Origin: Chitinophagaceae bacterium
GTDB lineage: Bacteria > Bacteroidota > Bacteroidia > Chitinophagales > Chitinophagaceae
Assembly (NCBI GenBank): GCA_017853575.1
Contig: JAFMJI010000003.1
Coordinates: 1-64,000 of the forward strand
DNA length: 64,000 bases
Direction: 5' to 3'
Of the stretch, positions 55 to 27,090 are shown in pieces. Within the stretch, counting starts at the first letter, position 1; every line of letters starts with the position of its first letter. A program made the position numbers and the translations under genes. Below the pieces are notes generated by a model. It did no database searches and had not been told where the DNA came from. It saw only the letters and a list, made by a program, of their open reading frames with translations.

Positions 55-105
55 TTTGACTTATCCATATTATAAGATAAGTGAGGAGGGGGAGAAAGTA
101 AAGGT
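55..105 (+). repeat. Dispersed composite repeat, copy 1 (hairpin C and purine tail only)
   Basis: This copy holds only the distal part of the repeat family: TTGACTTATC, a short spacer, GATAAGTGAGG and a purine-rich tail (GGGGGAGAAAGTAAAG). ACTTATC and GATAAGT form a 7-bp inverted repeat. It sits directly after the stop codon of the first secreted protein. The left modules are missing or diverged. The minus-strand frame through it stays open to the window edge, so it may also be the end of decayed coding DNA. Confidence 0.6.
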
Positions 106-108
106 TGA

Positions 109-2280
109 TTAGTTTTTAATCAGTTTCTCCGTCGTCAATAATCTTCCTGCTTTATCTTTCACCTGAATAATATAATTTCCTTTCATTGAAGATCCAAGAT
201 TGACTTTACTTCCACTGATCACTTTTCTATTACTGATTATTGTTCTTCCGCTCATATCAATCACACTGATAAATACATCTCTCGTACTTCTAATATTATA
301 GTTCAGATATATTTCACCATCAGTTGGGTTAGGGGAGATTCGTAAGTATTCATCACCTGTTAGGTTAGTAACGGCTGATGTTAAATAGTAATAATTTACA
401 CTTGCAGAACTTGTACATCCATTTTGTGTGGTTGTTGCTGTATAGTTTCCATTAGATGTTGGTTTAATCTTTTGAGTGGTGTCTGATATTTTTTCTCCGT
501 TTTTGTACCAGGCGATCCCGTTCGAACTGGCTACTAAATTATTGTCTAAATCTCTTGATAGAGTAGGAGATGAAGGAATTGCGTATTTGCTAAGCTTAAT
601 TGTATCCGAAGATACTTCACATCCTATACTATCTTTTCTTATGATATAAACTGATAAACTGTCTTTAAAAACTTTAGATGTCACATTTGTAAAATCAGTA
701 AACTTGCCAAAATACCATTTCAAAGAGTCAGTTTTAAGTACATTGTCAATTTTTAATTCATTTGTCATACTGATTTTTACACTATCACCTGGACAGAAAG
801 ATTTTGGGAAAGAACTTAAAATAGGTTTTCTTAAAAATTGACGTGGGCAATTAGGTTTATTTCTTACAGAATCAAATAAATACTTCGCGTATGCATCATA
901 TTGAAAAAAGTCTTGTTCTTCAAATTTGTTCCCTTTTCTTATGTATACTTTTTTTCTAGAAATTTCATTTGTTGAATCAGTATAGGGGATTATTGATGCA
1001 TCTAAATATGAGATATCTTTTTTACCATCACCATTAAAATCATAATATACCAATCTAAATTTCCAAATGGGGGGATTGCCTGTATAGTGTATTTTATTAT
1101 TAAACCAATTTGTATCAATTTTAAATGTTCTATCAGGATTTTGAATATATACTAGTATATACCAATCTTTATAATTCATTGCATTTAATGTTATGATGTC
1201 TTTTAGCCCATCACCATTCAAATCGTCAACGACGTGATCAAATTGATTTATACCATTATTATTACTTGATTTATAATTGGGGAAGTCTTTATAAAAAGGC
1301 ATTTTAATTAATCCAGATTTGTTAAATCGACCAGCACCCTGATTGATCATTATTCTTTGGTATGAATTATTTGACTCTTGTTCTGATCCTCCAAGTAATA
1401 AATCTAGCTTTCCATCACTATTTATGTCTTCAAAATGTCCAGCATACACATCACCTGCTCCTTCTGGAACAATTTCGCCGAAGGAATTATCAGAGGTAAA
1501 ATTTACAGTGTCATACGAGAAATGTGCAAAGTTTAAATTTGTAAAGTATGGATATGATGGTATTCCCCAGAATATGTATGAGTGTGGCCCTGTTGGGACA
1601 AATAGATCAGGATATCCATCGCCATTAGCATCTCCAACATCCCCACCTTCATGGCTAAAATGGTCGGCTAAATTTTTAGGTTCTAAATCAAGTTTAATTA
1701 TATCATATCCACCTTTGCCATCACTTAAGCAAACTGAAACTGGTTCTTTAATACTTTTATCAAAGTCATATCCTTCATCTCGTGCTCCATGAATTACTAA
1801 ATCTACATAGTTGTCAGAATTTAGATATATGGCATTTACCAATCTTGGGCTTCCAATAAAATCTGTTTTATCATTTATAAGATTCTTTTCATCAAATTTT
1901 TTAGAAACTGGGTTCCATATTAAAAAACTTAAGTTTGCTTTTTTCCCTCCAGATGCTGCACCGGCATTAAAAACGTCAATAAAGCCATCATTATTAAAAT
2001 CTCCATTACAAATAGCAGGTGAAAAAACACAATAAGCCTCACCTTGAGGAGGTCCATATACTTCATAGTTTTTTTGAAATAACCCTACTATAATATCACT
2101 AAATACACCTGTATTCTGCCAATAGGATTTTCCAAAATCCTTTTTCTTAGAGATATTTAATAATGCAGTATCAACTTTATACCCGTTAAAATATTTTAGA
2201 AGTGAGTCTGTGTTCAGTGTTTGTGAAAAACTCGTTATTTTAACGAAGATAAAAAATATCCAAATGAATAGGTTTCTCAC
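109..2280 (-). CDS. Secreted FG-GAP/VCBS-repeat protein with type IX secretion sorting domain
   Basis: Product is 723 residues. A hydrophobic N-terminal signal peptide ending near FSQT is followed by about six FG-GAP/VCBS calcium-binding-like motifs (for example DFNNDGFIDVF, DANGDGYPDLF, DINSDGKLDLL, DLNGDGLKDII, DFNGDGKKDIS), which normally build an integrin-type beta-propeller. An Ig-like stretch follows around residues 490-640. The last about 75 residues are a Por/type IX type A sorting domain (SPNPTDGEIYL to TTEKLIKN). It is therefore expected to cross the outer membrane and be anchored or released at the cell surface; the ligand is unknown. The next upstream gene is a paralogue with an almost identical C-terminus. 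Confidence 0.85.
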   Translation of the reverse strand: MRNLFIWIFFIFVKITSFSQTLNTDSLLKYFNGYKVDTALLNISKKKDFGKSYWQNTGVFSDIIVGLFQKNYEVYGPPQGEAYCVFSPAICNGDFNNDGFIDVFNAGAASGGKKANLSFLIWNPVSKKFDEKNLINDKTDFIGSPRLVNAIYLNSDNYVDLVIHGARDEGYDFDKSIKEPVSVCLSDGKGGYDIIKLDLEPKNLADHFSHEGGDVGDANGDGYPDLFVPTGPHSYIFWGIPSYPYFTNLNFAHFSYDTVNFTSDNSFGEIVPEGAGDVYAGHFEDINSDGKLDLLLGGSEQESNNSYQRIMINQGAGRFNKSGLIKMPFYKDFPNYKSSNNNGINQFDHVVDDLNGDGLKDIITLNAMNYKDWYILVYIQNPDRTFKIDTNWFNNKIHYTGNPPIWKFRLVYYDFNGDGKKDISYLDASIIPYTDSTNEISRKKVYIRKGNKFEEQDFFQYDAYAKYLFDSVRNKPNCPRQFLRKPILSSFPKSFCPGDSVKISMTNELKIDNVLKTDSLKWYFGKFTDFTNVTSKVFKDSLSVYIIRKDSIGCEVSSDTIKLSKYAIPSSPTLSRDLDNNLVASSNGIAWYKNGEKISDTTQKIKPTSNGNYTATTTQNGCTSSASVNYYYLTSAVTNLTGDEYLRISPNPTDGEIYLNYNIRSTRDVFISVIDMSGRTIISNRKVISGSKVNLGSSMKGNYIIQVKDKAGRLLTTEKLIKN

Positions 2281-2312
2281 AAGTGAATTATGAGATAAAA
2301 TTAAGTAATTAT

Positions 2313-5291
2313 TTAATTTTTAATTAACTTCTCTGTTGTCAATAACCTTCCTGATTTATCCTTCACTTGGATGATATAATTCCCTTTCATTGTTGTTCCA
2401 AGATTGAGTTTATTCCCACTGTTTACTTTTCTATTACTGATTATTGTTCTTCCGCTCATATCAATCACATTTATAAATACATCTCTCGTACTTCTAATAT
2501 TATAGTTCAGATATATATCACCATTTGTTGGATTGGGAGATACTTTGAAATATTCATCGCCTGAAAGGTTAGCAACGGCTGAAGTAAGATAATAGTAATT
2601 TACACTTGCAGTACTTGTACATCCATTTTGTGTTGTGGTTGCTGTATAGTTACCATTAGATGTAGGTTTAATCTTTTGCGTAGTATCAGCAATCTTAACT
2701 CCGTCTTTGTACCAGGTAATACTATTAGTATTAGCAACAAGATTGTTGTCCGCGTCTCTAGAAATTAAAGGTGAATTTGGTAGACCTTTTGTAGTTATTA
2801 CTATTTTAGCACGTTCACTTTCACATCCTGTTGAATTAAGTTTCTGTGTTACATAGTATGATACTGTTCCTGCTATACTTGAACTAGGCTTTGGGCTATT
2901 TGTAGTTGCAACACCACCTGTAGCATTTGTTCCATACCATAATATAGTTGTTTCACTCAGACCTATTGCTTTCAATGTATCTGTATTAGCATTTTGGCAA
3001 AAAGCTGTGTCAGTAACTTTTGGTAATGCAGGAGAGGGTTGAATTTTTACATACACTTCTGGACCAATATCTAAGACGCAGTAAAAACTATCTATCACAT
3101 AGGGAGTATATTTATTATTAGTGAAAGCATTGATTGTATTGCTTGTTTTACCACTTGCTTTTCGTGATGTTGAATCCATCAGAAATTTACCTATATATCG
3201 ATCTGCTAAGTTAAATTTCATTCCCAGAGAGTCTCTTTCACATATCATGTATAAGGGTAAGTTATTTTGAGTAAGGCTAGATGTTTTAGTAGGGGTTACA
3301 TTTACTCTTGTACCTTTTGCATTGTACCCGTAATCAAATTGGCAATTAGATATTATAAAAATCGAATCTAGTTTAGTGTCTTTAAATTTAATGGTGTCTG
3401 AAAAACTCTGTAGTGAATATATATCGCTGCTATTTTTTTTGAAATAATAATATTTTTTTGGAAATCCTGTCCATCCAAAAGCATTTGGTACAAATGAAGG
3501 TGGCACATAATTACTTAGCAAGATTTCTTTTTTCCCATCATTATCTAAATCGTATTGTACTCTTGCTTCTAGTTCTGCAATACCTTCTGCTCTATTTATT
3601 GATTTTACTTCTCCTTCATTTTCGAATTTAGAATCAGTTTTATTTACAAAATTATTTTTGCCATCGTTTTCGAAATATTGGAACAAGTAATTTCTATCTG
3701 CTGTAGGCTGTATGATTTCATAGTCATCATGTAAACCAATAATGATATCATTTAATCCATCACCGTTAATATCATCGCTTAGAATTGAAGAACCGACTTT
3801 TGAAGTACCCTGAAATTTGGAGCTGATATTGAGTGATATGGGGGAACCTAATTTTCCATTTTGATTCAAAAAAATTCTAGTTGGGAGATAAGTGGTATTC
3901 CCATTTGCTGAATACGGTGATTCAGGAACAATTATATCGTCATACCCATCATTGTTAAAATCATCAATTTCAAAGTGGATTGGTTTTGAAACGATATCAT
4001 TCACTGAAGTAAATTCAATAATGGAGTTTGTTTGAAAATTTCCAAGAGTGTCTTTTCCATAGAAAATATCAAATACATTTTTATCAGTATAGCTAGTCAG
4101 TACTATATCCGATAGTCCATCATGGTTTATATCACCAGTAGCCATACTGTATCTTAATCGTGCGTCTGCAGTTTTCCATCCTATCGGTAAATATTTAATC
4201 TCATATTTAAATTTTCCTGTACTTACAAACAGGATTACTTGGTTAACTAAAAAGTCATTATTAGATAATGCAACAAAGTCAGGATAAGCATCTTTATTGA
4301 TATTGGTTGTAACTAATACATCAAAATTATACGATAATAGTGTATCAATGTTTTTATTAAAATTAGATATGAATTGATTTGGGCGAAGTAATTCTGATGT
4401 TTTACTGTTGTATATAAATGGGATTGAATAATACAAGGAGTCATAGAATTTAGAAGAAACCATTTTTGAAAAATTTTTAAAAATTGTATCGGGCGGGTCT
4501 GATCCAGCATTTAATCCATTTGAATAAAGCGTATTGCTTCCTACTCCGTACAATACTTGTTTGCCAGTTTTATTTTTTGTCAACTTGAGAAAGAAATAGT
4601 CTTCTGTGCCATCATTATCTATATCAATTTTTTGGTGCACTTCTTGATATCCACTTCTCCATGTATTATTATTCTTATAATAACTAGAATTCATGGGAAG
4701 TCCTTTTGTCATTATCTTAACTGGGTCTGAATATACAGTACAACCCATTGAATCAGTCATTAAAACACGAATTGTAGCAGTATCTTTAAAAAATTTACTT
4801 TTAGAATTTAAATTTTTGTCTAATACACCATTAACTTCCCAGTTATATATAGAATTGGTAACAGAATTTTTAATCTTAATTTCTATAGAATCTTTAGTGT
4901 ACAGGTTATATTTTAATTTTTCAAGAGTTGGTTTTTCAATAATTCCACACGGTATATAAACAGTTTCTTGTAAAAAAATTCCATTTTTATTTATCCAATA
5001 CCACTCTCTTTCATTGTTTGGTAATGTCCTTGGGGCACTTGGTTCTCGAACAATAAAATTTTGATCTCCATCTTTGTCAAAATCTAAATATGCCCATGCA
5101 GAATTAAGTTGATCTATTGTTAATCCATTAAATGATTCGGCTGTTCTTGTATAACTTTTATTTAATGTATGAAAATAACAAGTTGTCTTATTTATTTCAG
5201 AAAATTTAAAATCTGTCTGGGGGAAAGCATGGTTGAAATAAAATAAAAATATGAAATTGATAAATATATTAGCATAAAAAAAATATCTCAT
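2313..5291 (-). CDS. Large secreted FG-GAP/VCBS-repeat protein with Ig-like and type IX sorting domains
   Basis: Product is 992 residues with a signal peptide (MRYFFYANIFINFIFLF..., cleavage near FPQ). At least seven FG-GAP/VCBS motifs are visible (DFDKDGDQNF, DIDNDGTEDYF, DINHDGLSDIV, DFNNDGYDDII, DINGDGLNDII, DLDNDGKKEIL and a weaker one). Two Ig/CHU_C-like segments follow; one contains the typical WYGTNATGG and YYVTQ motifs around residue 790-830. A type A sorting domain ends the protein. The last about 130 residues match the downstream paralogue almost residue for residue, pointing to duplication or gene conversion. The two genes are 32 bp apart in the same direction and may be cotranscribed. 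Surface adhesion or matrix binding is plausible but not shown. Confidence 0.85.
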   Translation of the reverse strand: MRYFFYANIFINFIFLFYFNHAFPQTDFKFSEINKTTCYFHTLNKSYTRTAESFNGLTIDQLNSAWAYLDFDKDGDQNFIVREPSAPRTLPNNEREWYWINKNGIFLQETVYIPCGIIEKPTLEKLKYNLYTKDSIEIKIKNSVTNSIYNWEVNGVLDKNLNSKSKFFKDTATIRVLMTDSMGCTVYSDPVKIMTKGLPMNSSYYKNNNTWRSGYQEVHQKIDIDNDGTEDYFFLKLTKNKTGKQVLYGVGSNTLYSNGLNAGSDPPDTIFKNFSKMVSSKFYDSLYYSIPFIYNSKTSELLRPNQFISNFNKNIDTLLSYNFDVLVTTNINKDAYPDFVALSNNDFLVNQVILFVSTGKFKYEIKYLPIGWKTADARLRYSMATGDINHDGLSDIVLTSYTDKNVFDIFYGKDTLGNFQTNSIIEFTSVNDIVSKPIHFEIDDFNNDGYDDIIVPESPYSANGNTTYLPTRIFLNQNGKLGSPISLNISSKFQGTSKVGSSILSDDINGDGLNDIIIGLHDDYEIIQPTADRNYLFQYFENDGKNNFVNKTDSKFENEGEVKSINRAEGIAELEARVQYDLDNDGKKEILLSNYVPPSFVPNAFGWTGFPKKYYYFKKNSSDIYSLQSFSDTIKFKDTKLDSIFIISNCQFDYGYNAKGTRVNVTPTKTSSLTQNNLPLYMICERDSLGMKFNLADRYIGKFLMDSTSRKASGKTSNTINAFTNNKYTPYVIDSFYCVLDIGPEVYVKIQPSPALPKVTDTAFCQNANTDTLKAIGLSETTILWYGTNATGGVATTNSPKPSSSIAGTVSYYVTQKLNSTGCESERAKIVITTKGLPNSPLISRDADNNLVANTNSITWYKDGVKIADTTQKIKPTSNGNYTATTTQNGCTSTASVNYYYLTSAVANLSGDEYFKVSPNPTNGDIYLNYNIRSTRDVFINVIDMSGRTIISNRKVNSGNKLNLGTTMKGNYIIQVKDKSGRLLTTEKLIKN

Positions 5292-5390
5292 GAAAAGGAA
5301 TTTGATTTTTCTCGGGATTAGGATTTGATTAAAATTAGAAAAAATATAAAATATTTTCTAAAAAAATCCTAGATAGTAGATTAGTGCAAA

Positions 5391-5510
5391 AGGGTTTTTT
5401 ATTTAGAGTGCACAGAAAGGTGCACAGTTTTTGGGATTTTCCCTCCAGTTTTTTATTTGATTTATCCAGGTTATAAGATAAGTGAGGAGGGGGAGAAGGT
5501 AAGGGGTTAA
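5391..5510 (+). repeat. Dispersed composite repeat, copy 2
   Basis: Contains the end of module A (AGGGTTTTTTATTTAG), the doubled GTGCACAG of module B, the TTTTTGGGATTTTC linker, hairpin C (TTTATCCAGGTTATAAGATAAGTGA) and the purine tail ending in AAGGGGTTA. The left arm of hairpin A is degraded. It separates the secreted-protein pair from the antiporter gene run. Same strand as the other oriented copies. Confidence 0.75.
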
Positions 5511-5530: not shown

Positions 5531-6514
5531 CTATAAAATGAGGTAGAGGTTGATGATGTAAACTATAAATATTACAACTGCATCCCAAGCCAAGAAAAAT
5601 CTTTTCCCTTTGGCATGATAGCTTAAGCCAATAACAACAATTGCGGACATAATTATTGTTGATAATATAGAAATAAGGTGAGTTGGTGATGCATCTTGCA
5701 AAAGCAAACCTTTTGTATAGAAGAGATCATCAATTGCTAGGATTAGAATATTAAAAATATTGCTGCCAAGTAAATTGCCAACAGCAAGGTCAATTGATCC
5801 CATCTTCACAGCAGCAATAGATACTGCTATTTCTGGAAGTGATGTTGAGACTGCAAGAAAAAATGTTCCAATAAATGATTGTTTTAATCCTGTCATTTCT
5901 GCAATATGCTCAGCAAAATAAGGGAGAGATAATGCTGCTCCAATAATTATCAAAGAAAAAAACGCATACCTGAATATTAAAAACTTCAGTGAAAGTTTAT
6001 TTTCTGAACTGTGATTATGCTCAATATTATTTGAGTGATTCTTCTCATTAGTATAAATTATACGAATTGAAATCAGGTACACAATTATGAAAATAATACT
6101 GGAGAGTGCAATCCACGGTGTAACAGCTAATTGATGTGGTATATACATGGCGAGTCCAACTATCCCAATCAGTATAATGCCTAACCCAGCATTTAGAATA
6201 TGTGATTGAGAAGCAATACCAAAAATCGGTTTATGTTTTGGTGTGAACGCGTCAAGAAGAGCAAGAATTCCCAGATTGAAAGCGCAACTTCCAACTATAT
6301 CTCCAACGGCTAAATCAGCAGATTTAACTATAGATACTGATCCTATTCCAACCATTAGTTCAGGGAGAGAAGTAATACTCGCCATGAGGATAATCCCAAT
6401 CCAGCCTTTGCTAATCCCAGTTGCTTCAGCGAGCAAATCCCCATATAGAGAAAGTTTTCTACCTGCAAAAAAAATCACTAAAGCAGAAAAAATAAAACCA
6501 ATAATATATACCAT
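5531..6514 (-). CDS. Calcium/sodium:cation exchanger (CaCA family, YrbG-like)
   Basis: Integral inner-membrane exchanger of about 327 residues, expected to trade Ca2+ or a related cation for Na+ or H+. Both alpha-repeats of the family are visible: SITSLPELMVGIGS with GDIVGSCAFNLG in the first half, and AVSTSLPEIAVSIAA with GNLLGSNIFNI in the second, each carrying the Pro-Glu pair used for ion binding. Length and the ten or so hydrophobic segments fit the family. An ATG at 6514 is preferred; a GTG at 6523 would add three residues. The gene follows the cation:proton antiporter by 30 bp on the same strand, so an ion-homeostasis operon is likely. Confidence 0.9.
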   Translation of the reverse strand: MVYIIGFIFSALVIFFAGRKLSLYGDLLAEATGISKGWIGIILMASITSLPELMVGIGSVSIVKSADLAVGDIVGSCAFNLGILALLDAFTPKHKPIFGIASQSHILNAGLGIILIGIVGLAMYIPHQLAVTPWIALSSIIFIIVYLISIRIIYTNEKNHSNNIEHNHSSENKLSLKFLIFRYAFFSLIIIGAALSLPYFAEHIAEMTGLKQSFIGTFFLAVSTSLPEIAVSIAAVKMGSIDLAVGNLLGSNIFNILILAIDDLFYTKGLLLQDASPTHLISILSTIIMSAIVVIGLSYHAKGKRFFLAWDAVVIFIVYIINLYLIL

Positions 6515-6544
6515 AAAAGGCACTTTGAGTAAGTGATTTTTTAC

Positions 6545-7729
6545 TTATGAATTGTTAGTGGGTGTCTCTGTTTTTTTATTTTTTATCATTCCCCAAACCA
6601 TGATTATTGATGTAAAAATTATTACTTGAATAACAACAGGTTTTCCTATAAATCCAACTTGGCTTGTAACTGGTATGGTTAGAAATAATAGTATAGTTAT
6701 TAATCCACGTGGCGCAATATATATTGTTGGTGAGAATCTTATTGAAAACCTTTTTAAAAGAACAAAGCGAACTGTGAATATTAAGAGAGTAATGGAAGTT
6801 GAATATATTAGGGATTGGATATTGATAATATCTTTTATTTCAATTAGAAAACCAAATAATAAAAAGAATAAACTTCTAATAAGAAAAGTTATTTCACTTG
6901 TTATTTCTTTCAGTTTAGCAATTTCAGAATTAAAAGATACCGTATGAAAAAAGTTGATGAATTTATGATTTTTGAATTCATCTAAATTCCCTAAAAAAAG
7001 ACCAAAAATCAAAATAAATATTAACCCAGGCAGATGAAAGTGTTTTGAAATTGCATAAATCAGCACTATCATAATAATGATAGGGAGATATTTTACATTG
7101 TCTTTTATTTTATACAATAGTCGAGATAAAATGATTGTTGCAGTGAATGAAATAATAAGCATTGCAATAAGTTGTAAAAAGAATATTCCAAAACTTTGAG
7201 TGCCTATACTGTCGTTGAGTGTTATAAAATTAAAAAGAATTACTCCTATGATATCAGATAAACTGCTTTCATAGGTTATGAACTCTTTATAATACTTATT
7301 TAAATATTTCACACTTGGAACTGCTATGGCACTAGAAATTATTGAAAGTGGTATTACATTGGACAAAATGGTTTTGATATTGATTTTATGCACAGCACCC
7401 AGTATATAAGCGGTTGAAAAACTTAAAATAAAAACTGAAAGTCCTGCAATAAAAAAAGATTTTTTTATCAAACTGAATTTCTCTCTATTCAATTCTAATT
7501 CTAGTGAACCTTCAAGAACAATCAAAATTAACCCAAGAGTCCCTAAAACAGGGAGTATTGGATTCAAATTTGGTAATTGTAAGTTAACCTTCTCTATAAT
7601 TATTTTCACCAGAAAACCTAGTAGTAATAATAAAATAGCTGAAGGGAATTTAGTTTTACTTGCTGATATTTCAAACAAATAAGAAAATAAAACTAGTACG
7701 GATAATATAATAATAATTGTTGTAGTCAT
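6545..7729 (-). CDS. Cation:proton antiporter (CPA1/NhaP-like)
   Basis: Product is 394 residues with about 11-12 hydrophobic segments along its whole length. The segment SSAIAVPSVKYL followed by ESSLSDIIGVILFN corresponds to the core ion-binding region of Na+/H+ exchangers of the CPA1 type. A C-terminal cytoplasmic RCK or CBS domain is absent, so this is a transport core only. It likely exchanges Na+ or K+ for H+ across the inner membrane. The DapB-like gene lies 5 bp upstream, so translation is probably coupled. This gene is strikingly AT-rich compared with genes further along the window. Confidence 0.85.
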   Translation of the reverse strand: MTTTIIIILSVLVLFSYLFEISASKTKFPSAILLLLLGFLVKIIIEKVNLQLPNLNPILPVLGTLGLILIVLEGSLELELNREKFSLIKKSFFIAGLSVFILSFSTAYILGAVHKINIKTILSNVIPLSIISSAIAVPSVKYLNKYYKEFITYESSLSDIIGVILFNFITLNDSIGTQSFGIFFLQLIAMLIISFTATIILSRLLYKIKDNVKYLPIIIMIVLIYAISKHFHLPGLIFILIFGLFLGNLDEFKNHKFINFFHTVSFNSEIAKLKEITSEITFLIRSLFFLLFGFLIEIKDIINIQSLIYSTSITLLIFTVRFVLLKRFSIRFSPTIYIAPRGLITILLFLTIPVTSQVGFIGKPVVIQVIIFTSIIMVWGMIKNKKTETPTNNS

Positions 7730-7734
7730 TGGCG

Positions 7735-8490
7735 TTAATGAGAAAAATATGGGAGTAACAAATCTTCAAAATTATAAAGGCCAGATTCTTTTGAGATAAG
7801 ATTTTGCGCTGCAAAAATTGCACCGTTCCCAAAAGCCTCTCTAGATATACTCTCATGTATTAGCCTAACAGTTTGATATGGGAATCCAAAGATAACTTCA
7901 TGTTTTCCTACTATCCCTCCCGCCCTGATTGAATTGATTTTGTCAGATTCAACATTTAGAGCATTTGCGATTTTTATTGCTGTTCCAGATAAACCTTCTT
8001 TACCTTTAAAATGTTCTTCAATAATTTCAATATCAACCCAAGGGGCAATTTTCTTTAAAAATTTAGATACAAAAAGTAAATAATTTACTCCTAGGGTAAT
8101 ATTAGGAGACCAAAATACTACTGTTGTATTAGAAATCTGTTTCAGAAAATCAATTTCTTCGTTTGAATAGTGAGATACACCAGAGATGATTTTAATTTTA
8201 TTATTAGCAGCAATCGCTCCATAATTAAATATAGTTTCATGGGATGAAAAGTCAACTATAAAATCGACTGGATGCTTTTTGATTACCTCATCAATACTTA
8301 TCGAGGAAGAAGAATATATCAAACCAGGTTCATCTGATTCGAACCCCAAAAATTCGGGAACACTTCTTTTTTCTAATAATGTAGATCTTCTATATACCCA
8401 ATCAAGAGAAAATTCCTGATTTTGTAGGATAACATTAGCAATTGCTTTTCCTGCTCTTCCAAATCCAATTAAACCAACTTTTTTTTTCAT
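7735..8490 (-). CDS. dapB: 4-hydroxy-tetrahydrodipicolinate reductase (DapB-like)
   Basis: Product is 251 residues. The N-terminus has a Rossmann nucleotide-binding loop (GLIGFGRAGKAIA). The mid-protein signature EEHFKGKEGLSGTA matches the DapB catalytic region (EMHHRHK...PSGTA), keeping the catalytic His and Lys with a one-residue shortening. The C-terminal RAGGIVGKHEV and SREAFGNGA segments are also typical. DapB reduces the diaminopimelate/lysine pathway intermediate with NAD(P)H. Length fits (usually 240-270). No other dap gene is nearby; instead it is in a run with ion antiporters, which is unusual. The Leu for Pro before SGTA is a small deviation. Confidence 0.8.
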   Translation of the reverse strand: MKKKVGLIGFGRAGKAIANVILQNQEFSLDWVYRRSTLLEKRSVPEFLGFESDEPGLIYSSSSISIDEVIKKHPVDFIVDFSSHETIFNYGAIAANNKIKIISGVSHYSNEEIDFLKQISNTTVVFWSPNITLGVNYLLFVSKFLKKIAPWVDIEIIEEHFKGKEGLSGTAIKIANALNVESDKINSIRAGGIVGKHEVIFGFPYQTVRLIHESISREAFGNGAIFAAQNLISKESGLYNFEDLLLPYFSH

Positions 8491-9270: not shown

Positions 9271-9273
9271 TTT

Positions 9274-18262: not shown

Positions 18263-18320
18263 AATTAGATTATTTAATTTTCTGAAATATAATTTAACCA
18301 CGTCTTAATAACACATATTT

Positions 18321-19171: not shown

Positions 19172-19654
19172 TCATTTTTTTAAAACCATGCTATCACTTA
19201 ATGTTTTATTCGCTATATCCCGTGCATAATGTATGTAAGCACTGATGGCTTTAATTTCTTCATCTTTCAGATCTGAATACTGCGGCATGGGAGAGCTTTT
19301 TGCAGTCAATGGGATTCCATTGCGAAGAATTTTCCCAATTAGATTTCCATTTACATCTGCGCCCACAATTGTTGACTTCCTCAAGTCTGCAGCCTCTCCA
19401 ACAGGCGTGAGATAGAGCCCATGGCAATAAGCACATCCATAGATCACAAAGGTTTCTTTGTTGTGCTGCATAATGGTATCTGAAAGTGGAATTCCAACAT
19501 AGGCGGTATCATAATCGTTTATGATTTTCGTCGTATCTATCTTGGTTACAACAATAGGCTTTTTGGGATTATCCTTGCATCCTGTAAAGACAAAAGATAA
19601 AAGTAGAATGACTATGCTGAAAAATCGATTGATGAATGTATTGTTTGTGCGCAT
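19172..19654 (-). CDS. Lipoprotein c-type cytochrome
   Basis: Product is 160 residues. A lipobox (SFVFTGCKD) ends the signal peptide, so the mature protein is a lipoprotein of the periplasm or outer membrane. One haem-binding CAYCH motif lies near residue 75, and the axial Met is probably in SSPMPQYSDL. DEEIKAISAYIHYAR is the typical last helix of class I cytochromes c. It should shuttle electrons to a periplasmic or membrane oxidoreductase. It lies 10 bp downstream of the sugar epimerase gene, a pairing seen with Gfo/Idh/MocA-type sugar oxidation genes in this phylum. Confidence 0.85.
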   Translation of the reverse strand: MRTNNTFINRFFSIVILLLSFVFTGCKDNPKKPIVVTKIDTTKIINDYDTAYVGIPLSDTIMQHNKETFVIYGCAYCHGLYLTPVGEAADLRKSTIVGADVNGNLIGKILRNGIPLTAKSSPMPQYSDLKDEEIKAISAYIHYARDIANKTLSDSMVLKK

Positions 19655-19664
19655 TTTGATTGAT

Positions 19665-20618
19665 TTAGCTGATCAGTGCATTTTTGCAAAACTGATATGT
19701 TTTTTGAACCTCCGTAACACTTGTATTGATGGTACCATGCTCAAATTCAATAATCACAGGAATAGGCCATTGATTGTCTCTAACCAATTTCAAAATTTCA
19801 ACAAGTGGGGTATCACCTTCACCAAATCGTGCACTTCTTCCCTGATTTCTTTTACGATTTCCCAGGTGGATATTCCTAATCAACGGATGATGTTTTTTGA
19901 TGAATTCGATGCAATCACCATTCGCTGCAGTATAATGTCTGGTATCGAACGTTGCCCTTACATTTGGAGAAAAAGCAAATGCATTGAGAAAACTTTGTTC
20001 ATTATTGAATGCATCTGGATCTGATAGATTAGAATGGTTATGCACTGAAATGAACATATTATGTTTTTCAGCAAACGGAACCAATCTCTTGATCGATTTT
20101 TGTCCTTCAGAACCTACACACGCACCAGCACCTAAAATTTTAGCAGCCTTGAAAGTTGCATCCACTTCTTCATCTGTATATTCAGTATAATTATTGAAGT
20201 AAGACGCATCCATGTCTACGTAATAGTTCAGAATTGAAATCCCTGCCTCGTCAAATTCTTTACGGATGTTTTCATAATAATTATCGGGAGTGCTGATTCT
20301 CCATTGACGCACTTTTTCTCGGGAGGCTTCTTTGCTCATGCCGGGTTCGTTGAATTTAGGTTCACACCATCTTGCATGCAATTCCATGAGTCCGAAGCCA
20401 TTTTGTTTGACTTTTTCAATCAGGGTTTTTCTATTGGCTACATTCATGACGAGGTCGTGATAGCAAAAGGGTTGTACCCCAAATTGGACTCCATTTACAA
20501 ATGATTTTGCCTTCAGTGAGGTTGGGTCATACTGCAATGGATTGCTGATGCAACCTGAGAGCATCGATAATCCTGGGATACATGCAAATGAAATCCTTGA
20601 AAATTCACGCCTGTTCAT
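19665..20618 (-). CDS. Sugar phosphate isomerase/epimerase (xylose-isomerase-like TIM barrel) with twin-arginine leader
   Basis: Product is 317 residues. It begins MNRREFSRISFACIPG with a twin-arginine motif and a possible lipobox (LSGCIS), so export is likely. The body is an AP-endonuclease-2/xylose-isomerase TIM barrel: FGLMELHARW, NYYVDMDASY, GSEGQ, ISVHNHSN, TFDTRHYTAANGD, NIHLGNRKR and IIEFEHG carry the His, Asp and Glu metal ligands. It probably isomerises or epimerises a sugar or keto-sugar outside the cytosol. It forms a two-gene operon with the cytochrome c gene 10 bp downstream. Confidence 0.85.
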   Translation of the reverse strand: MNRREFSRISFACIPGLSMLSGCISNPLQYDPTSLKAKSFVNGVQFGVQPFCYHDLVMNVANRKTLIEKVKQNGFGLMELHARWCEPKFNEPGMSKEASREKVRQWRISTPDNYYENIRKEFDEAGISILNYYVDMDASYFNNYTEYTDEEVDATFKAAKILGAGACVGSEGQKSIKRLVPFAEKHNMFISVHNHSNLSDPDAFNNEQSFLNAFAFSPNVRATFDTRHYTAANGDCIEFIKKHHPLIRNIHLGNRKRNQGRSARFGEGDTPLVEILKLVRDNQWPIPVIIEFEHGTINTSVTEVQKTYQFCKNALIS

Positions 20619-21001
20619 GTGATCTTTTTTAATAAGGTTGATTTAGCCTATTTAAATATAAGTAAAATCATCAATTAATTATTTTATAACTAAAACATGA
20701 CAATCCTATTATTTGACTTATCAATAGTATACGATAAATGACTAAAATGCAGAGTGCACATTATTATAGTTTATCAAAAACTATTGAAGCAAAAATGCTG
20801 TATTTAAATAAAATTTTTGACAAACCAGCGAAGACAGTTTTATAAAAATCAATTGGGCAAAGAATTTTTGAGTTAATCGTTCAGCTACTTACGTTATTTA
20901 GCTATAGATTTACTTAATAACCTAGGATAAGTTAATTTTAATCACAAACTGATCATATATTAGTTTATCATGTTCCGAAATGCAAAAAAAGTAGATATAA
21001 C
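20619..21001. other. Intergenic region with a degenerate copy of the dispersed repeat
   Basis: About 380 bp between the divergent epimerase and VanZ-like genes. At 20709-20739 TATTTGACTTATC...ACGATAAATGA is a decayed hairpin C (copy 8), followed nearby by GAGTGCACA. A 36-codon frame beginning ATG at 20738 is open but has no recognisable content and I do not call it. No other structure seen. Confidence 0.45.
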
Positions 21002-21415
21002 ATGGGGGTAAGTATTTTACGAAAAAAAAGTATTCAGGTTTTAATTCATGTGATATTTCCTTTGATGCTAGGAAGCATGGTCTATATTTTTATTCGTAGT
21101 GGAAGTTTTATTGCATTTGAAAAAATTGATCCTGGGATTAAAATAGATTATTCTTTCTCTTCTAATCTTATTTTAACTTATCTAATTTATTCATTTCCGG
21201 ATTTTTGTTGGTCATACGCATTTTTAAGCTTTCAGATCGGAATTATTTGGGGGGGAGTCAAAAAAATATCACACACTTTAAAGTTTATAATCTATATTTT
21301 CCCTATATTAACAGAGGTGATGCAGTATTTCCATTTAATAAGGGGAACTGCTGATTGGGCCGATGTTATTTCTTATCTGTTTGCCATTTTTATAAATATA
21401 TATGTATGGAAATAA
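21002..21415 (+). CDS. VanZ-like membrane protein
   Basis: Product is 137 residues with about four membrane segments. PDFCWSYAFLSFQIGIIW and the C-terminal GTADWADVISYLFAIFINIY (VanZ motif: xxDWxDvlay) match the VanZ-like family. VanZ proteins are integral membrane proteins linked in some bacteria to teicoplanin resistance, but most homologues have no known role. The stop codon overlaps the start of the next gene by 10 bp, so the two are translationally coupled. Confidence 0.65.
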   Translation: MGVSILRKKSIQVLIHVIFPLMLGSMVYIFIRSGSFIAFEKIDPGIKIDYSFSSNLILTYLIYSFPDFCWSYAFLSFQIGIIWGGVKKISHTLKFIIYIFPILTEVMQYFHLIRGTADWADVISYLFAIFINIYVWK

Positions 21416-22395
21416 AAAAAATAACTAATTCAAGTAAGCTACTTTTTACAGTGCTGACATTTGTAGTTTTTGCATTCATGTTTTGGGCTAGTGGCCCCAG
21501 CAGAAAAACTTATACACCTATTAAATATGCGGCAACTGACTTGCAGCCTGCTGTTACACCGGATGCAAGAGAGTTAACAAGAATCACCAATGATAATCTT
21601 CAAGAATTGGGGGCATCTATAAGTCCTGATGGTAAAAAAATCCTATACTATACTCGAAATCCAATGGAGATAGGGAATAACCAATATCATATTAATCTAA
21701 AAACATTGGGTGAACAGGGTGTTAGTCCTTTGTTGACTGCTGGCTGTTTACAACCTTCATGGATGGCGGATAATCAAGGATTTTATTTCAAATACTCTGT
21801 TGCAGCAAAGCCGGTTATTTCTAAATCTAAAGTTGAAAATGGGGGTATTAGTTACGTTTCACCAAATAATAACGGGGAAGACGATAATTTTCCTAATATT
21901 CTGAGAGCGACAAATAAAATTCTTTTTGGTACAGCGATTGGCGGTTCTGTCCAAATTGCCACAGTAGATCAAAATGGATTGAATTTCACAATTCTTGCAG
22001 AGGGGCGGGCTCCCTTTGCCCATCCATCAGAAAATAGTTTCGTTTTTGAAAAAATCGTTGGAGACTATTGGCACATTTTCATTTATGATAACAACACTGG
22101 TCAACAAACACAATTGACAAGTGGGAATCAACACAATAGTTATGCCAGAATTTCTCCAGACGGGAAGTGGATTGTATTTAAAAGGGATTTTCCCAAGAAC
22201 AGTGCTCATATCATGTTGATGAACACCAGTGGTGGCAATGTAAAACAACTTACAACTGGTAATACATGGAATGAAAGACCTGAATTTGGAGCTGATGGAT
22301 ACATTTATTTTTCTTCCAATGCTGGTAATACTGAACCGTATAGAAAGTATGATAACTTTGATATCTGGAGGGTTAAACCCAATCTCCAGCAATAA
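21406..22395 (+). CDS. TolB/WD40-like beta-propeller protein
   Basis: Product is 329 residues starting with ATG at 21406, inside the end of the VanZ-like gene. An N-terminal hydrophobic segment (LLFTVLTFVVFAFMFWASG) anchors or exports it. Propeller blades of the PD40/TolB type follow: GASISPDGKKILYYT, ARISPDGKWIVFKRD, RPEFGADGYIYFSS. Six blades or fewer are expected. Such proteins act in the periplasm, often as binding platforms; no catalytic domain is attached. Coupling to the VanZ-like gene suggests a shared but unknown envelope role. Confidence 0.8.
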   Translation: MEIKKITNSSKLLFTVLTFVVFAFMFWASGPSRKTYTPIKYAATDLQPAVTPDARELTRITNDNLQELGASISPDGKKILYYTRNPMEIGNNQYHINLKTLGEQGVSPLLTAGCLQPSWMADNQGFYFKYSVAAKPVISKSKVENGGISYVSPNNNGEDDNFPNILRATNKILFGTAIGGSVQIATVDQNGLNFTILAEGRAPFAHPSENSFVFEKIVGDYWHIFIYDNNTGQQTQLTSGNQHNSYARISPDGKWIVFKRDFPKNSAHIMLMNTSGGNVKQLTTGNTWNERPEFGADGYIYFSSNAGNTEPYRKYDNFDIWRVKPNLQQ

Positions 22396-22428
22396 ATAGA
22401 TTTTTATGTTTCATCATAATGTCGATTG

Positions 22429-22821
22429 ATGAAAATTATCATTGGTTTTTTTCTTACACTCCTTTTTTCCTTTGGGTGTATGAAAAATAAAAAAAATAGC
22501 ATTGTATCTTTTCAGTACCAAGGTTATGGGGATACACTATTCGCATTGCTTTATGGTAAGGTAATTGATTTTGAAAATCATCCATTAAGAAGTACAAAAA
22601 TTGAGTTATTGAATTCTAATTACAAAACACTAACTGATAGTTTAGGATATTTTGAATTATACTCAAGTGGTGCTAAGTATGATGTATCCATTTTCAAACA
22701 AGCATTTCAGTCAGTTATAATAAAAGGGTATGAGTCTAGGTCTGATCAAGTTTCTCATGTCGAAATAAAATTGTCATCTGACCGCAATGATACATTGATA
22801 GTAAGTGGTGCGCCACATTAG
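22429..22821 (+). CDS. Lipoprotein with carboxypeptidase regulatory-like domain
   Basis: Product is 130 residues from ATG at 22429. The N-terminus is a lipoprotein signal (FLTLLFSFGCMK). LYGKVIDFENHPLRSTKIELLNS followed by TDSLGYFELYSSGAKYDVSI is a CarboxypepD_reg-like beta-sandwich, as found at the start of many Bacteroidota outer-membrane proteins. Here it is the only domain. It likely sits on the outer-membrane periplasmic face. It follows the TolB-like gene by 33 bp and may belong to the same transcript. Precise role unknown. Confidence 0.7.
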   Translation: MKIIIGFFLTLLFSFGCMKNKKNSIVSFQYQGYGDTLFALLYGKVIDFENHPLRSTKIELLNSNYKTLTDSLGYFELYSSGAKYDVSIFKQAFQSVIIKGYESRSDQVSHVEIKLSSDRNDTLIVSGAPH

Positions 22822-22865
22822 GTAAGACTTTGCAGAACGATCCATGGTTTTGTAAGGCCTTTGCT

Positions 22866-23132
22866 TTATTTCCCTTCCATCTTGTTTACATACTCGAGTG
22901 AGCCCAATCTGATCCTGAGAGGCAATCTGGTTTTCTTCTCAAATTTCCATTCTTGCTTGCAAACGAACCCTTGCTTAGAGCTTATAAAATCTGGTTTTAC
23001 ACCAACGGTTGGTTTTTTTATTTGAGCAGGGTAGATTGTTGATTTAAAAACAAATGTTTTGGGCAATGGAATTTTTCGTTGCCCGATACAGCAATTGCAA
23101 GTGAGTAATAATGCGATAGTCAAGAGTCGCAT
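22866..23132 (-). CDS. Small secreted hypothetical protein
   Basis: Product is 88 residues with a short signal peptide ([16 protein letters not shown]). The mature part is about 70 residues and ends [20 protein letters not shown] recall this conserved end (RLGSLxYVNxLEGK) from unnamed proteins of Chitinophagaceae, which supports it being a real gene. Two internal cysteines are present in the leader region and one in the mature part. No function can be assigned. It is convergent with the lipoprotein gene and divergent from the Gfo/Idh/MocA gene. Confidence 0.6.
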
Positions 23133-23279
23133 GGGTCGATAATTATTTACAAATTTACAATTGGTTTATTCAATGGCATATATATTTTGTTGGGTGTTTA
23201 CAAAAAAATCGTATCTATAAAAAATGTATATTCATTAAAATTTTCATTCAAAAATATTTTAACATTTAAAGCTTTTAGT

Positions 23280-24626
23280 ATGAATAAGCAACGCAGAACA
23301 TTTATACGGAATATTTCTCTTGGCGCAGCCAGTATAGGCATAGGAGGAATTGCATCCGGCTTCACGCCGAAAAGTTATTCTAGAATTATTGGGGCCAATG
23401 ACAGATTGAATGTTGCATTGATGGGTTGCGGAAGAAGGGTTGGTGCATATTACAGTGCATTGCAAAACAAAAGCAACAATGTTGACGTGGCATATATCTG
23501 TGATGTAATGAAAAAACAAAGAGAAAAAGTGGGGAAGGATCTCAACGGGAAAGTGACTGGCAACGCAACGTTAGTCAATGATATTCATGATGTTTGGAAC
23601 GATAAAAATGTAGATGCAATTTTCAATGCAACTCCAGACCATTGGCATGCACCAGGTACATGGATGGCTATGCAAGCAGGTAAACATGTTTATATTGAAA
23701 AACCATGTAGCCACAACCCACATGAAGGCGAGTTGTTGGTTGCTTTCCAGAAAAAATATGGCAAGGTAATTCAGATGGGTAATCAGCAGCGATCTGCAAA
23801 AGATTCACAAGAGATTATCGCTGCAATTCATGGTGGTACGATTGGTGAAGTATATAAAGCAGTTGCATTTTATTCAAATAACAGAGGCGAAGTACCTGTA
23901 GCAAAAAAATCAGCTGTTCCAGAAGGGTTGGATTGGAATTTGTGGCAAGGTCCAGCTCCGCATGTTGAATACAATGATAATACATGGGATTATAACTGGC
24001 ATTGGTATGGATGGCATTGGGGAACTGCTGAAACCGGTAACAATGCAACACACGAATTGGATGTTGCACGTTGGGCGCTTCAGGTTTCATATCCTGAACA
24101 CGTTGACGTTGAGGCTGCAAAACGTCATTTTAAAAATGATGGATGGGTGATGTATGATACCATGGAAGCAAACTTCAGATTCCCTGGTGATAAAATAATT
24201 GTGTGGGATGGTAAGAGCAGGAGTGGATACAATACCTATGGTAGTGATCGGGGAACAATAATTTTTGGAAGTCTTGGAACAGTTTTTGTAAATCGAAGTG
24301 GATACACTTTGTATGACAGATCTGGAAAGAAATTGAAAGACAGTAAATCAGCAAGCAATGAGGCAGGCACTGCATTGGGCGGCGGCGGTGATATGACTGA
24401 TGCGCATGTGGTAAATTTCTTCAATGTCATTCGTGGTAAAGAAAGTAAATTGAATTCACCCATCGAAGAAGGTGCTATCAGTCAGATGATGTGCCATTAC
24501 GCAAACATTTCATATCGCATCGGTAAATCATTTGATATCAATCCCACTGATGGACATATACTTGATAAAGATGGAATGAAACTATGGTCACGCACTTATC
24601 AAAAAGGTTGGGAGCCTAAGCTGTAA
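23280..24626 (+). CDS. Gfo/Idh/MocA family oxidoreductase with twin-arginine signal
   Basis: Product is 448 residues from ATG at 23280. It begins MNKQRRTFIRNISLGAA, a clear twin-arginine leader, so the folded cofactor-loaded enzyme is exported. The Rossmann region reads NVALMGCGRRVGAYY, and the family motif HVYIEKPCSHNPHEGELL (EKP) is present. A second domain includes GNNATHELDVARWAL with the likely catalytic His. It would oxidise or reduce a sugar or inositol-type substrate with tightly bound NAD(P). It is monocistronic, bounded by a strong terminator. Confidence 0.92.
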   Translation: MNKQRRTFIRNISLGAASIGIGGIASGFTPKSYSRIIGANDRLNVALMGCGRRVGAYYSALQNKSNNVDVAYICDVMKKQREKVGKDLNGKVTGNATLVNDIHDVWNDKNVDAIFNATPDHWHAPGTWMAMQAGKHVYIEKPCSHNPHEGELLVAFQKKYGKVIQMGNQQRSAKDSQEIIAAIHGGTIGEVYKAVAFYSNNRGEVPVAKKSAVPEGLDWNLWQGPAPHVEYNDNTWDYNWHWYGWHWGTAETGNNATHELDVARWALQVSYPEHVDVEAAKRHFKNDGWVMYDTMEANFRFPGDKIIVWDGKSRSGYNTYGSDRGTIIFGSLGTVFVNRSGYTLYDRSGKKLKDSKSASNEAGTALGGGGDMTDAHVVNFFNVIRGKESKLNSPIEEGAISQMMCHYANISYRIGKSFDINPTDGHILDKDGMKLWSRTYQKGWEPKL

Positions 24627-24659
24627 ATTTAATACGAGCTTCGACCCTTATGACCAAAT

Positions 24660-24689
24660 AAAAAGGCCTCTGTTTTCAGAGGCCTTTTT
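24660..24689. terminator. Bidirectional intrinsic terminator
   Basis: AAAAAGGCCTCTG and CAGAGGCCTTTTT form a perfect 13-bp stem with a TTTT loop. It is located between two convergent genes (Gfo/Idh/MocA oxidoreductase and NTF2-like lipoprotein) and has A-tract and T-tract flanks, so it should stop transcripts from both sides. Confidence 0.9.
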
Positions 24690-24712
24690 ATTATTTCTAA
24701 ATTGAAATACTT

Positions 24713-25267
24713 TTATTTTTTTGCATTGTTGGTTGCAGCTACTTCGTTCATCAATGGTGTTGGGTCAAAAGTAAATCTAGCAGCAATGATTTTATTGTTT
24801 GCCCATTGGAATGTTATACCTCCCTCATTTTCAATTTTAGCATGTGTGGTTTTACCTGTAGCTTTCCAGGTGTACCAAACCAATGTATAAATATTGCCGG
24901 CTTTTAGTGTGTTGGTTTCATGAATTTCGTCTTTTATCAAAGAATCAGTTTTCACATAGTAATTATTCTTTTCCCAACGGATGCTATCAAAATACATATG
25001 ATGTGATTGTGCAAGTTCTTTCCACTCTTTTTTGCTCATCGGCGTAGAAGAATTAAAATAGATTTTTGCTGAGTCAGATACCAATTCATCAAATTTCGGG
25101 TAAACATTTTTTGTATAATCTTCGTTGATATCCTTGATGGCTTTGGAATAATAATCATCAATTCTGGATACAGTTGTGATTGTTTCATCAACCTGAGATT
25201 CGGTTTTGCTGTTATTACATGCTACTAAAGTAGAAGCCATTGCAGCAATGAGAAATAATTTTTTCAT
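24713..25267 (-). CDS. NTF2/SnoaL-like lipoprotein
   Basis: Product is 184 residues with a lipoprotein signal (AAMASTLVACNNS). The mature part resembles the SnoaL/NTF2-like cone fold, with LVWYTWKATGKTTHAKIENEGGITFQWANNKIIAARFTFDP as the strand-rich end, where QW..NKI....F.D is the familiar last hairpin. Such domains bind small ligands; no catalytic residues can be assigned. It shares a strong terminator with the convergent gene. Nearby, on the other strand, there is a fragment of a second NTF2-like gene. Confidence 0.75.
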   Translation of the reverse strand: MKKLFLIAAMASTLVACNNSKTESQVDETITTVSRIDDYYSKAIKDINEDYTKNVYPKFDELVSDSAKIYFNSSTPMSKKEWKELAQSHHMYFDSIRWEKNNYYVKTDSLIKDEIHETNTLKAGNIYTLVWYTWKATGKTTHAKIENEGGITFQWANNKIIAARFTFDPTPLMNEVAATNNAKK

Positions 25268-25442: not shown

Positions 25443-25513
25443 ACATTATTCTTTGTGAAATTATATTTCAATCTTACTGTAGAGTATTGAAGTAAAATAT
25501 ACAGTAAAAAATT

Positions 25514-25585
25514 AACCCTTGTAGGTTAAATCCCTACAAGGGTTTTTTTATTTTCGGTGAAGCGATAGGTGCACGTAGGTTTTTC
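25514..25585 (+). repeat. Dispersed composite repeat, copy 9 (modules A and B)
   Basis: Hairpin A (AACCCTTGTAGG / CCCTACAAGGGTT, T-run) is followed by a diverged module B in which one GTGCAC remains (GATAGGTGCACGTAGG). Hairpin C is absent. It lies just downstream of the NTF2-like remnant, in the same relation as copy 6 to the hydrolase remnant. Confidence 0.7.
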
Positions 25586-25623
25586 TTTAACAATTTATAT
25601 TTTCTATTCGTCGAATATTAAAG

Positions 25624-25631
25624 TATCTTTG
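25624..25631 (+). promoter_or_regulatory. Probable -7 promoter box of the DEAD-box helicase gene
   Basis: TATCTTTG matches the Bacteroidota sigma-A -7 consensus TAnnTTTG. No convincing -33 TTG was found at the usual spacing. If used, it gives an untranslated leader of roughly 130 nt before the GTG start, long enough for structural or cold-dependent control. Confidence 0.45.
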
Positions 25632-25766
25632 CAATTCTTGATGTTATTGCTCTCTGTGTTTGTGCAGTTCTTCTTCCCAAATATGTTGTTGTTCTAACGT
25701 AAGGCAGATAAAGCATCGATTTCATAACGATGGCCTTATCACATTATTCATTTAATCATTACAAAA

Positions 25767-26999
25767 GTGTCGTTTAAAAATTTAAGACTCATTGAGCCTA
25801 TATTGAAGGCTTTGGACGAGGAAGGGTATGAAACTCCCACTCAGATCCAACAAAAATCAATCACTCCCATTTTAGATCGGAAAGATATTTTGGGTTGTGC
25901 GCAAACAGGAACAGGTAAGACAGCTGCCTTTACCATACCAATTTTACAGTTGATGCATGAAAAACGTGCTTCAGTTAATAGTCGTGCTAAAACTATTGAT
26001 ACATTGATACTCACACCAACACGTGAGTTGGCAATTCAAATTGGTGAAAGCATTGCTGCATATGGCCGTCACCTTTTTTTAAGACATCATGTTGTTTTTG
26101 GTGGTGTTTCACAACATAGTCAGGTGAATGCAATCCGCAATGGTGTAGATATTTTGGTGGCTACACCAGGCCGTTTATTAGATCTGATGCAACAGGGGCA
26201 TATTACACTTTCAAATATCAAATTTTTTGTGCTGGATGAAGCAGATCGCATGCTCGATATGGGGTTTATCCATGATGTTAAAAAAATTATTGCAAAGCTT
26301 CCTGTTAAAAGACAATCACTTTTCTTTTCTGCTACCATGCCACCTGAAATCAGTCAGCTTGCAGATATGTTGTTGAAGCATCCAGTTAAAATAGAAGTAA
26401 CACCAGTTTCTTCAACGGCTGAGATGATTCAACAGGCAGTTTATTTAGTTGAAAAAAATGATAAACAAGATTTGTTGATAGATATTCTCAAAGATAAATC
26501 TATAGAAACCCTCTTGGTCTTTACACAGATGAAACATGCTGCAGACAAGCTTTCCAAGCGATTGAATGCTTCAGGTATTTATGCTGCAGCCATACATGGT
26601 AATAAATCACAGAATGCAAGGCAAACTGCGTTGGAAAACTTTAAAAATAAAAGAGTCAGGGTGCTTGTTGCAACTGATATTGCCGCAAGGGGAATCGATA
26701 TTGATCAACTGTCGCATGTGCTGAACTATGAACTGCCGAATGTTCCGGAGACCTATGTTCACAGAATTGGCAGGACGGGCAGAGCTGGTGCTTCTGGAAT
26801 AGCTTTGTCGTTTTGCAGTAGAGAGGAGAAGGCTTATTTGAGGGATATCGAAAGGCTTATCAAGAAATCAATTCCTGTTATGAATTGGGAGGTGAGTTCC
26901 ATTGAGCAATCACATAACAATCAATCTTATTCCTTAAATAAAAATAATCGATCCAATAAAAGGATGACGATTCAAAAGCGGGAAACGGTTTTCGGATAA
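25767..26999 (+). CDS. rhlE: DEAD-box ATP-dependent RNA helicase, RhlE-like
   Basis: Product is 410 residues from a GTG start; the following residues ([20 protein letters not shown]) match the usual RhlE start, so the GTG is well supported. Motifs are complete: Q motif (TPTQIQ), I (AQTGTGKTA), Ia (PTRELA), Ib (TPGR), II (DEAD), III (SAT), IV-V ([10 protein letters not shown]) and VI (HRIGRTGR). The C-terminal tail is short, basic and Asn/Ser-rich, likely RNA-binding. It unwinds RNA in ribosome assembly and cold adaptation in the cytosol. Monocistronic, with a long leader. Confidence 0.95.
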
Positions 27000-27069
27000 G
27001 CGATTTAGATACAGGGTTTAATTATTAAGCGGCTAGAGTAATCATGATGTTTAAATGATGTAAAGAAAA

Positions 27070-27090
27070 GTGCACAGTATTTTGGATTAA
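27070..27090 (+). repeat. Fragment of the dispersed composite repeat, copy 10
   Basis: GTGCACAGTATTTTGGATTAA matches module B plus the start of the linker (GTGCACAGTTTTTGGGATTTT). All other modules are missing. It is the last recognisable copy in the window. Confidence 0.45.

Follow-up and report, generated by a model that had tools for sequence, protein, structure and literature searches.

A repeated unit arrayed behind tRNA-Phe in a Chitinophagaceae genome, a candidate attachment-site arm of integrase-less elements

A composite non-coding repeat unit recurs between genes in the first 27 kb of a 64,000-nucleotide stretch of Chitinophagaceae DNA (the window, i.e. positions 1 to 64,000 of contig JAFMJI010000003.1, GenBank assembly GCA_017853575.1), raising the question of whether it is a mobile repeat or marks sites at which genes have been gained. 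In the genome under study, G000 (2.3 Mb, 40 contigs), the window forms the beginning of contig C35 (202,623 bp). A preliminary description of it considered both tandem accretion at an attachment-type site and a REP- or MITE-like element (repetitive extragenic palindromic; miniature inverted-repeat transposable element), and preferred the latter. The available evidence favours a different balance, in that we consider it probable, at roughly 60%, that the unit represents an attachment-site arm belonging to small elements that lack an integrase; these would have accreted at a tRNA-Phe gene, with a recombinase supplied in trans, and would have been reshuffled afterwards.

The full unit consists, 5' to 3', of a hairpin with a T-run (hairpin A) and two GGTGCACAG boxes (box-pair sequence GTGCACAG), followed by a TTTTTGGGATTTTC linker and hairpin C, which is a dyad of ~30 bp; it ends in a purine tail. 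A BLAST search of the whole G000 genome with the single copy at 13603-13759 gave eleven other copies, with E-values from 3e-50 to 0.007 and all on the plus strand, bearing out the claim that a composite repeat exists. Seven of these are in the window (5390, 5.2e-34; 10134, 3.0e-20; 16324, 3.1e-17; 15518, 1.5e-11; and, more weakly, 25514, 2.7e-8; 55, 1.7e-7; 20711, 0.007), and four are on contig C23, of 16,109 bp (C23:8763, 2.9e-50; C23:10478, 1.2e-43; C23:15627, 1.4e-18; C23:13674, 6.0e-7). With a one-box remnant at 27066, located by motif scans, the totals are nine copies in the window, where ten had been counted, and 13 in G000. Five minus-strand matches (E ≤0.17) are each explained by the palindromic hairpin A of a plus copy, which they overlap; the remaining matches have E-values >1. 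Significance was taken from the single-copy search since the nhmmer profile was built from nine G000 copies, for which its E-values are circular. The 25-base box-pair motif had no match of at least 18 in ten simulations of random sequence of window length. RNAalifold predicted no pair on 16 units, and search model R1 was therefore based on sequence only. Neither BLAST nor a genus-wide model of the unit gave comparable copies in G000 outside C23 and the first 27 kb of C35.

In a module scan of the copies, scored against 1000 random flank pieces, every module is present in C23:8763 and C23:10478, and all except a recognisable tail in copy 13603, which is 94% alike to C23:8763 over 125 bases. Copy 5390 retains the boxes, linker, hairpin C and tail, with a remnant of hairpin A; hairpin A is absent from copies 10134 and 16324, copies 55 and C23:13674 have hairpin C and tail only, and C23:15627 keeps hairpin C and part of hairpin A. 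Hairpin A alone passes in copies 15518 and 25507, while 20712 is hairpin C only and 27066 a single box only. Of all modules, hairpin C is retained most often in G000 (10 of the 13 copies). All nine window copies lie between open reading frames (ORFs) of at least 80 aa, or touch them by a few bases, in agreement with their description as intergenic, and array DNA has a higher AT content than its flanks.

The array starts not in the window but on C23, directly behind tRNA-Phe, where the first copy begins 7 bases after the tRNA gene and has the same direction. From C23:8756 it would run to the end of C23 and then along C35 to ~25.6 kb, the two contigs being presumably joined; its far end is marked by the last half unit (25507-25575), which abuts the sequence preceding rhlE. 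The earlier placement in the first 27 kb holds in that no copies occur later on C35, but misses the start. Likewise, the strand is constant on both G000 contigs, but not in a relative, G007, where contig C5 has one copy on the minus and two on the plus strand.

A unit is directly behind tRNA-Phe also in genomes G001 and G026 and in locus L113, and hairpin A with boxes is found at this position in G402, of another genus. ARAGORN identified tRNA-Phe in 26/26 of the tRNA-Phe loci listed, most of which have, by eye, a terminator-like hairpin behind the gene; this terminator is hairpin A in G000, G001, G026 and L113, and a diverged version of it in G007. L113 (VHBB01000019.1), which is filed under Sphingomonadales, contains a Chitinophagaceae tRNA-Phe region with a unit and is probably mis-binned, since the region matches that of C23 at 82% over 254 bases. 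Just before tRNA-Phe, C23 (locus L026, 7419-8464) has a Fic gene and a helix-turn-helix-like gene (the Fic gene alone was scanned), and G001 and G026 have, by eye, other small toxin-antitoxin-like pairs. An Rfam scan of the window gave one tRNA and nothing else.

Copied tRNA ends suggest a link between the unit and integration. Fourteen units not at a tRNA itself, in and outside G000, were examined, with 20,000 random pieces for each. A copied tRNA-Phe 3' end is beside four of them, in G008, G061 and loci L114 and L117, the last two being contigs of one metagenome-assembled genome (MAG), VGGW01. The best 18-base match of each of these four units was reached by 0/20,000 random pieces; the unbroken run in G061, of 4 bases, is by itself not unusual. 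The unit in G008 is ~1.4 kb away from the intact tRNA and has in front of it an exact 18/18-base copy of the genome's own tRNA-Phe 3' end; the ends in L114, L117 and G061 were compared with the tRNA-Phe of G000 and G008, rather than with their own tRNA-Phe genes.

L117 has, in addition, a second box pair 136 bp upstream of the copied tRNA-Phe end, with the unit boxes 69 bp downstream (131 and 74 bp if counted from the 18-base core, the core starts being defined slightly differently). L117 has two copies of this upstream arm, separated by ~1.2 kb; their sequences agree almost completely as far as the first bases of the copied tRNA end, after which they diverge. The interval between them contains one full unit, a SnoaL/DUF4440-type gene of 157 aa and an ORF of 96 aa extending into the second arm. 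Judged by its sequence, the 1.2-kb stretch has the anatomy of an integrative element without an integrase: both attachment (att)-type arms are present, and it encodes neither an integrase nor transfer genes. G007, too, has the upstream arm before a unit (E 5.6e-19), there with an eroded tRNA end. SnoaL-type small proteins are cassette cargo in two species (C23, locus L026, 13845-15491; L117, 6944-7417).

A complete integrative element of ~6 kb, located in tRNA-Asp of G008 (contig C3; L190, 936-7118), has a similar architecture. A terminator hairpin and a GGGGAC box pair come first, then cargo (DUF6371, AAA_25 and HTH_17) and an integrase; a further GGGGAC box pair follows, and the tRNA-Asp 3' end is copied last, over 18 bases. 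The integrase is a 429-aa tyrosine integrase, with SAM-like and catalytic domains over the cut-off and Arm-DNA-bind_5 just under it. The features in common with the tRNA-Phe units are the tRNA, the terminator hairpin, paired direct-repeat boxes and, at some units of relatives, an upstream arm with the same boxes and a copied tRNA 3' end, with near-equal spacing (box-to-core distances of 139 and 72 bp, vs 136/69 in L117). By contrast, the tRNA-Asp element encodes its own integrase and other mobile-element genes, and its boxes are GGGGAC. This arm geometry, the tRNA-Phe anchor and the copied ends at 4/14 units support the earlier suggestion of tandem accretion at an attachment-type site.

A profile search of the genome and its relatives, as the preliminary description had proposed, gave matches to the genus model in 12/41 genomes of the genus at E 0.01, ten of them at ≤6e-9 and two weak (G017, G021). 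Elsewhere in G000 it gave only a weak minus-strand match at C35:8280-8393 (E 3.3e-4), overlapping the dapB-like gene. In a draw of 394 family genomes, which includes ten of the genus, so that most unit-bearing relatives are outside the draw, eight genomes matched at E 1e-5, including five of the genus. The three matches outside the genus are tRNA terminators, i.e. of tRNA-Phe with GTGCAC boxes in G402, and of tRNA-Asp with GGGGAC-like boxes in G345 and G264, and suggest a wider pattern of tRNA, terminator and paired boxes, in which the box may vary with the tRNA. The box pair as searched is present in 3/394 family genomes (G000, G026, G402). An exact 20-base box pair occurs 77 bases behind tRNA-Thr, in opposite orientation and with a hairpin between, in L112 (927-1095; PLZS01000099.1, filed as Melainabacteria); about one chance match is expected by estimate, and the site beside a tRNA is odd. 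Plasmids gave no match to the unit, and among phages there was a match of 31 bases, to two records of a single Lactococcus phage. Two pattern scans of viral contigs gave one match each, both within protein genes and judged to be chance. A literature search with general terms, the genus name not among them, found no report of this repeat.

By comparing the G000 array with these relatives, a mechanism can be proposed. The unit would be the P arm of small integrative elements with the tRNA-Phe 3' end as their target; an inserted element would restore the tRNA via its own copied 3' end and supply hairpin A as a new terminator. The paired direct-repeat boxes may be arm-type sites, to which a tyrosine integrase would bind, and hairpin C and the purine tail are an added conserved module. 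Carrying about one to six cargo genes and no integrase, the elements would be moved in trans. A newcomer would land between the tRNA and older elements, so that all units would point away from tRNA-Phe, and later exchange between units would swap or delete cassettes, leaving half units.

The array as it appears in the window is as follows; unit copies were identified by BLAST and the module scan unless stated.

55-108, plus: unit copy reduced to hairpin C and purine tail; 54 bases of the contig precede it
109-5291, minus: cassette with two FG-GAP proteins bearing type IX secretion system (T9SS) sorting domains (109-2280, 2313-5291)
5390-5510, plus: unit copy with hairpin A remnant, both boxes, linker, hairpin C and tail
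5531-10107, mixed: cassette with Na/Ca exchanger, 394-aa protein, extra dapB paralog and bPH_4 (all minus), and a RibD_C gene (plus, 9562-10107)
9388-10194, plus: segment 99.3% identical to G013:C10, ending in hairpin C
10134-10218, plus: unit copy without hairpin A, having linker, hairpin C and tail
10216-13478, minus: cassette with 141-aa protein and GH2 glycosidase
13603-13757, plus: most complete window copy, with hairpin A, boxes, linker and hairpin C, and a diverged tail
13789-15437, mixed: cassette with 271-aa protein (plus) and 245-aa protein (minus)
15518-15590, plus: half unit, hairpin A and diverged boxes
15771-16247, minus: cassette with cupin gene, also present in G013:C19
16324-16410, plus: half unit without hairpin A, having one box, linker and hairpin C
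16432-20618, mixed: cassette with TMEM175, acetamidase/formamidase, 234-aa protein, cytochrome c and AP_endonuc_2-type protein
20711-20744, plus: remnant, hairpin C only
21002-25267, mixed: distal array genes, i.e. PD40 protein, carboxypeptidase-regulatory-like protein, 88-aa protein, GFO/IDH/MocA oxidoreductase and 184-aa protein
25507-25575, plus: last half unit (hairpin A and diverged boxes), at the array border
25576-26999, plus: chromosomal flank with rhlE; the same stretch borders array genes in G013
27066-27077, plus: single-box remnant past rhlE (motif scans)

One cargo segment is common to G000 and another species, G013, contig C10 of which shares 807 bp with the RibD segment at 99.3%; elsewhere in this comparison, eight segments of window 28000-47999 are at 68-80% and rhlE is at 88%. 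The left end of the segment is the end of G013:C10. A foreign contig is disfavoured because other genes on G013:C10 are 83% and 71% like those of G000, and an assembly join at the repeat is possible. On G013:C19 the cupin gene is followed by the gene of window 22866-23132, another gene and rhlE, so that the locus is the same, with its genes in a different order. In G013, rhlE and the stretch before it (91% over 225 bp) come after other array genes without an intervening unit; rhlE with its 200 bp upstream is chromosomal flank. The dapB of the array is an extra paralog, because a stronger DapB_C match is at C36:82470 and G000 is alone among the 41 genus genomes in having two.

G000 has four PF00589 matches, all on contigs outside the array; from their sizes and neighbours, two can be read as XerD and XerC, and the other two as phage-type, one with Arm-DNA-bind_5. 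There is no sign of IntI among the four, an IntI-specific model not having been run. G007, G013 and G016 each have two such tyrosine-recombinase matches, by size probably XerC and XerD. A dif-like site, with a sequence ending ATAATTTATATTATGTTAA, occurs once in each of 27/41 genus genomes and is likely the chromosomal dif; in G000 it is at C14:101668-101689 (L155). The unit itself was rejected as dif, the likely dif being a different sequence on another contig. Hairpin C and the genus dif have the outer arm bases ACTTAT/TAAGT in common, with the inner arms of dif absent from hairpin C.

Several observations weigh against accretion in trans. A tRNA end was undetected at 10/14 units: all six internal G000 copies in which hairpin A is at least partly present, otherwise well kept, and four further units, of which G007 has two and G013 and G002 have one each. 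A search for the upstream arm in G000 gave nothing, and the border of the shared RibD segment is in hairpin C rather than at a tRNA end. With four recombinases as queries there was no match in the window or in 18 fetched loci; no helper integrase with these boxes was found in the genus genomes or the 394 family genomes, and the helper, if any, was not sampled. Hairpin C was not seen in the tRNA-Asp element. In addition, some of the named contigs are from MAGs, and assembly errors are possible because contigs often stop at the unit. Accretion is a good fit for some relatives and a poorer one for G000, because its internal copies show no tRNA end. We think that later exchange between repeats reshaped the G000 array; the half units and the RibD junction fit this, as they would a crossover at hairpin C.

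The lack of tRNA ends at internal G000 copies speaks for a hotspot with no site-specific step today: foreign DNA would enter behind tRNA-Phe, where there are a terminator and a flanking repeat, by homologous recombination between repeats, and the units would multiply passively. Half units, broken borders and the same distal genes in different order in G013 fit such a hotspot, and the likeness of copies 13603 and C23:8763 is as exchange predicts. We nevertheless regard it as fairly unlikely; it leaves unexplained the two-arm geometry common to the integrase-encoding element, the copied tRNA ends and the single orientation outward from the tRNA in G000. Hairpin C, as the module most widely kept, would fit an integron-like system, with the crossover in hairpin C, cassettes running from C to C with a variable left part, and XerC/XerD or another recombinase acting. 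The end of the RibD segment, the probable XerC and XerD of G007, G013 and G016, and the outer arm bases shared with dif are consistent with this. However, the likely dif differs and is elsewhere, hairpin C is without its inner arms, and the copied tRNA ends and upstream arm of the relatives put a crossover in the tRNA end; the 99.3% segment can also be explained by homologous exchange or an assembly join. We regard an integron-like system as distinctly unlikely.

The preference for a REP- or MITE-like element with orientation bias is not supported by these comparisons, and we consider such an element highly improbable. The unit is indeed short, non-coding and intergenic, with inverted repeats, but genome-wide dispersal is lacking, the G000 copies forming one tRNA-anchored cluster on two contigs, and the tRNA-Phe link recurs in four genus or mis-binned contigs besides that of G000. 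The argument from core genes inside the array fails because dapB is a second copy and rhlE is flank.

Integron cassette arrays and clusters of attC sites lacking integron-integrases (CALINs) consist of serial cassettes with a repeated, same-facing recombination site. Serial cassettes and such a site are found here too, but the G000 array is anchored at a tRNA. Additive tRNA islands are an already known kind of locus, of which the G000 array is a variant. In 'Ca. Methylopumilus', fGI-2 is described, in the part of the report concerned, as an additive flexible genomic island (fGI) that lies behind tRNA-Lys and in which the final 20 bases of the tRNA recur (PMC10872708); an island behind a tRNA, variable gene content and freshwater bacteria are common to both. 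By contrast, the repeats so described for fGI-2 are of the tRNA end only (PMC10872708), which is not repeated in G000, where a further ~150-bp arm (terminator, boxes, hairpin C) is repeated. The Dehalococcoides ssrA islands are, in the relevant part of their description, tandem and bounded by 20-bp repeats of the transfer-messenger RNA (tmRNA) 3' end; some lack integration genes, are suspected to be cis-mobilizable and are suggested to have moved with neighbours, i.e. by accretion (PMC3146451). Tandem accretion and members without integration genes are the likeness, but 16 of those islands are described as having an integration module with a serine recombinase (PMC3146451), whereas no recombinase was found in the G000 array.

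It is possible, rather than probable, that this genus of freshwater Chitinophagaceae keeps integron-like tRNA-Phe cassettes, each with a two-armed site and one to few cargo genes, without an array integrase, transfer between species being by a transient helper and hairpin C with its tail acting as a second mobility signal. More generally, the array would illustrate how small-genome lake bacteria are able to acquire cargo genes without retaining the enzyme that inserts them, and the unit is a sequence tag with which such cassettes can be tracked as they pass between species. A tRNA terminator that is repeated together with integrase-arm boxes can also mimic a REP family.

With respect to cargo, PADLOC gave no match on 10 array proteins. 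One C23 cassette (L026, 10638-13620) is filled by four consecutive genes starting MEVHH, with no Pfam match in the two tested; relatives of this family at window 14700-15437 and 34519-35286 match one and the same G013 gene. Window positions 109-408 and 2313-2612, i.e. the ends of the neighbouring FG-GAP genes that encode the T9SS sorting domain, are 85% identical over 300 bases.

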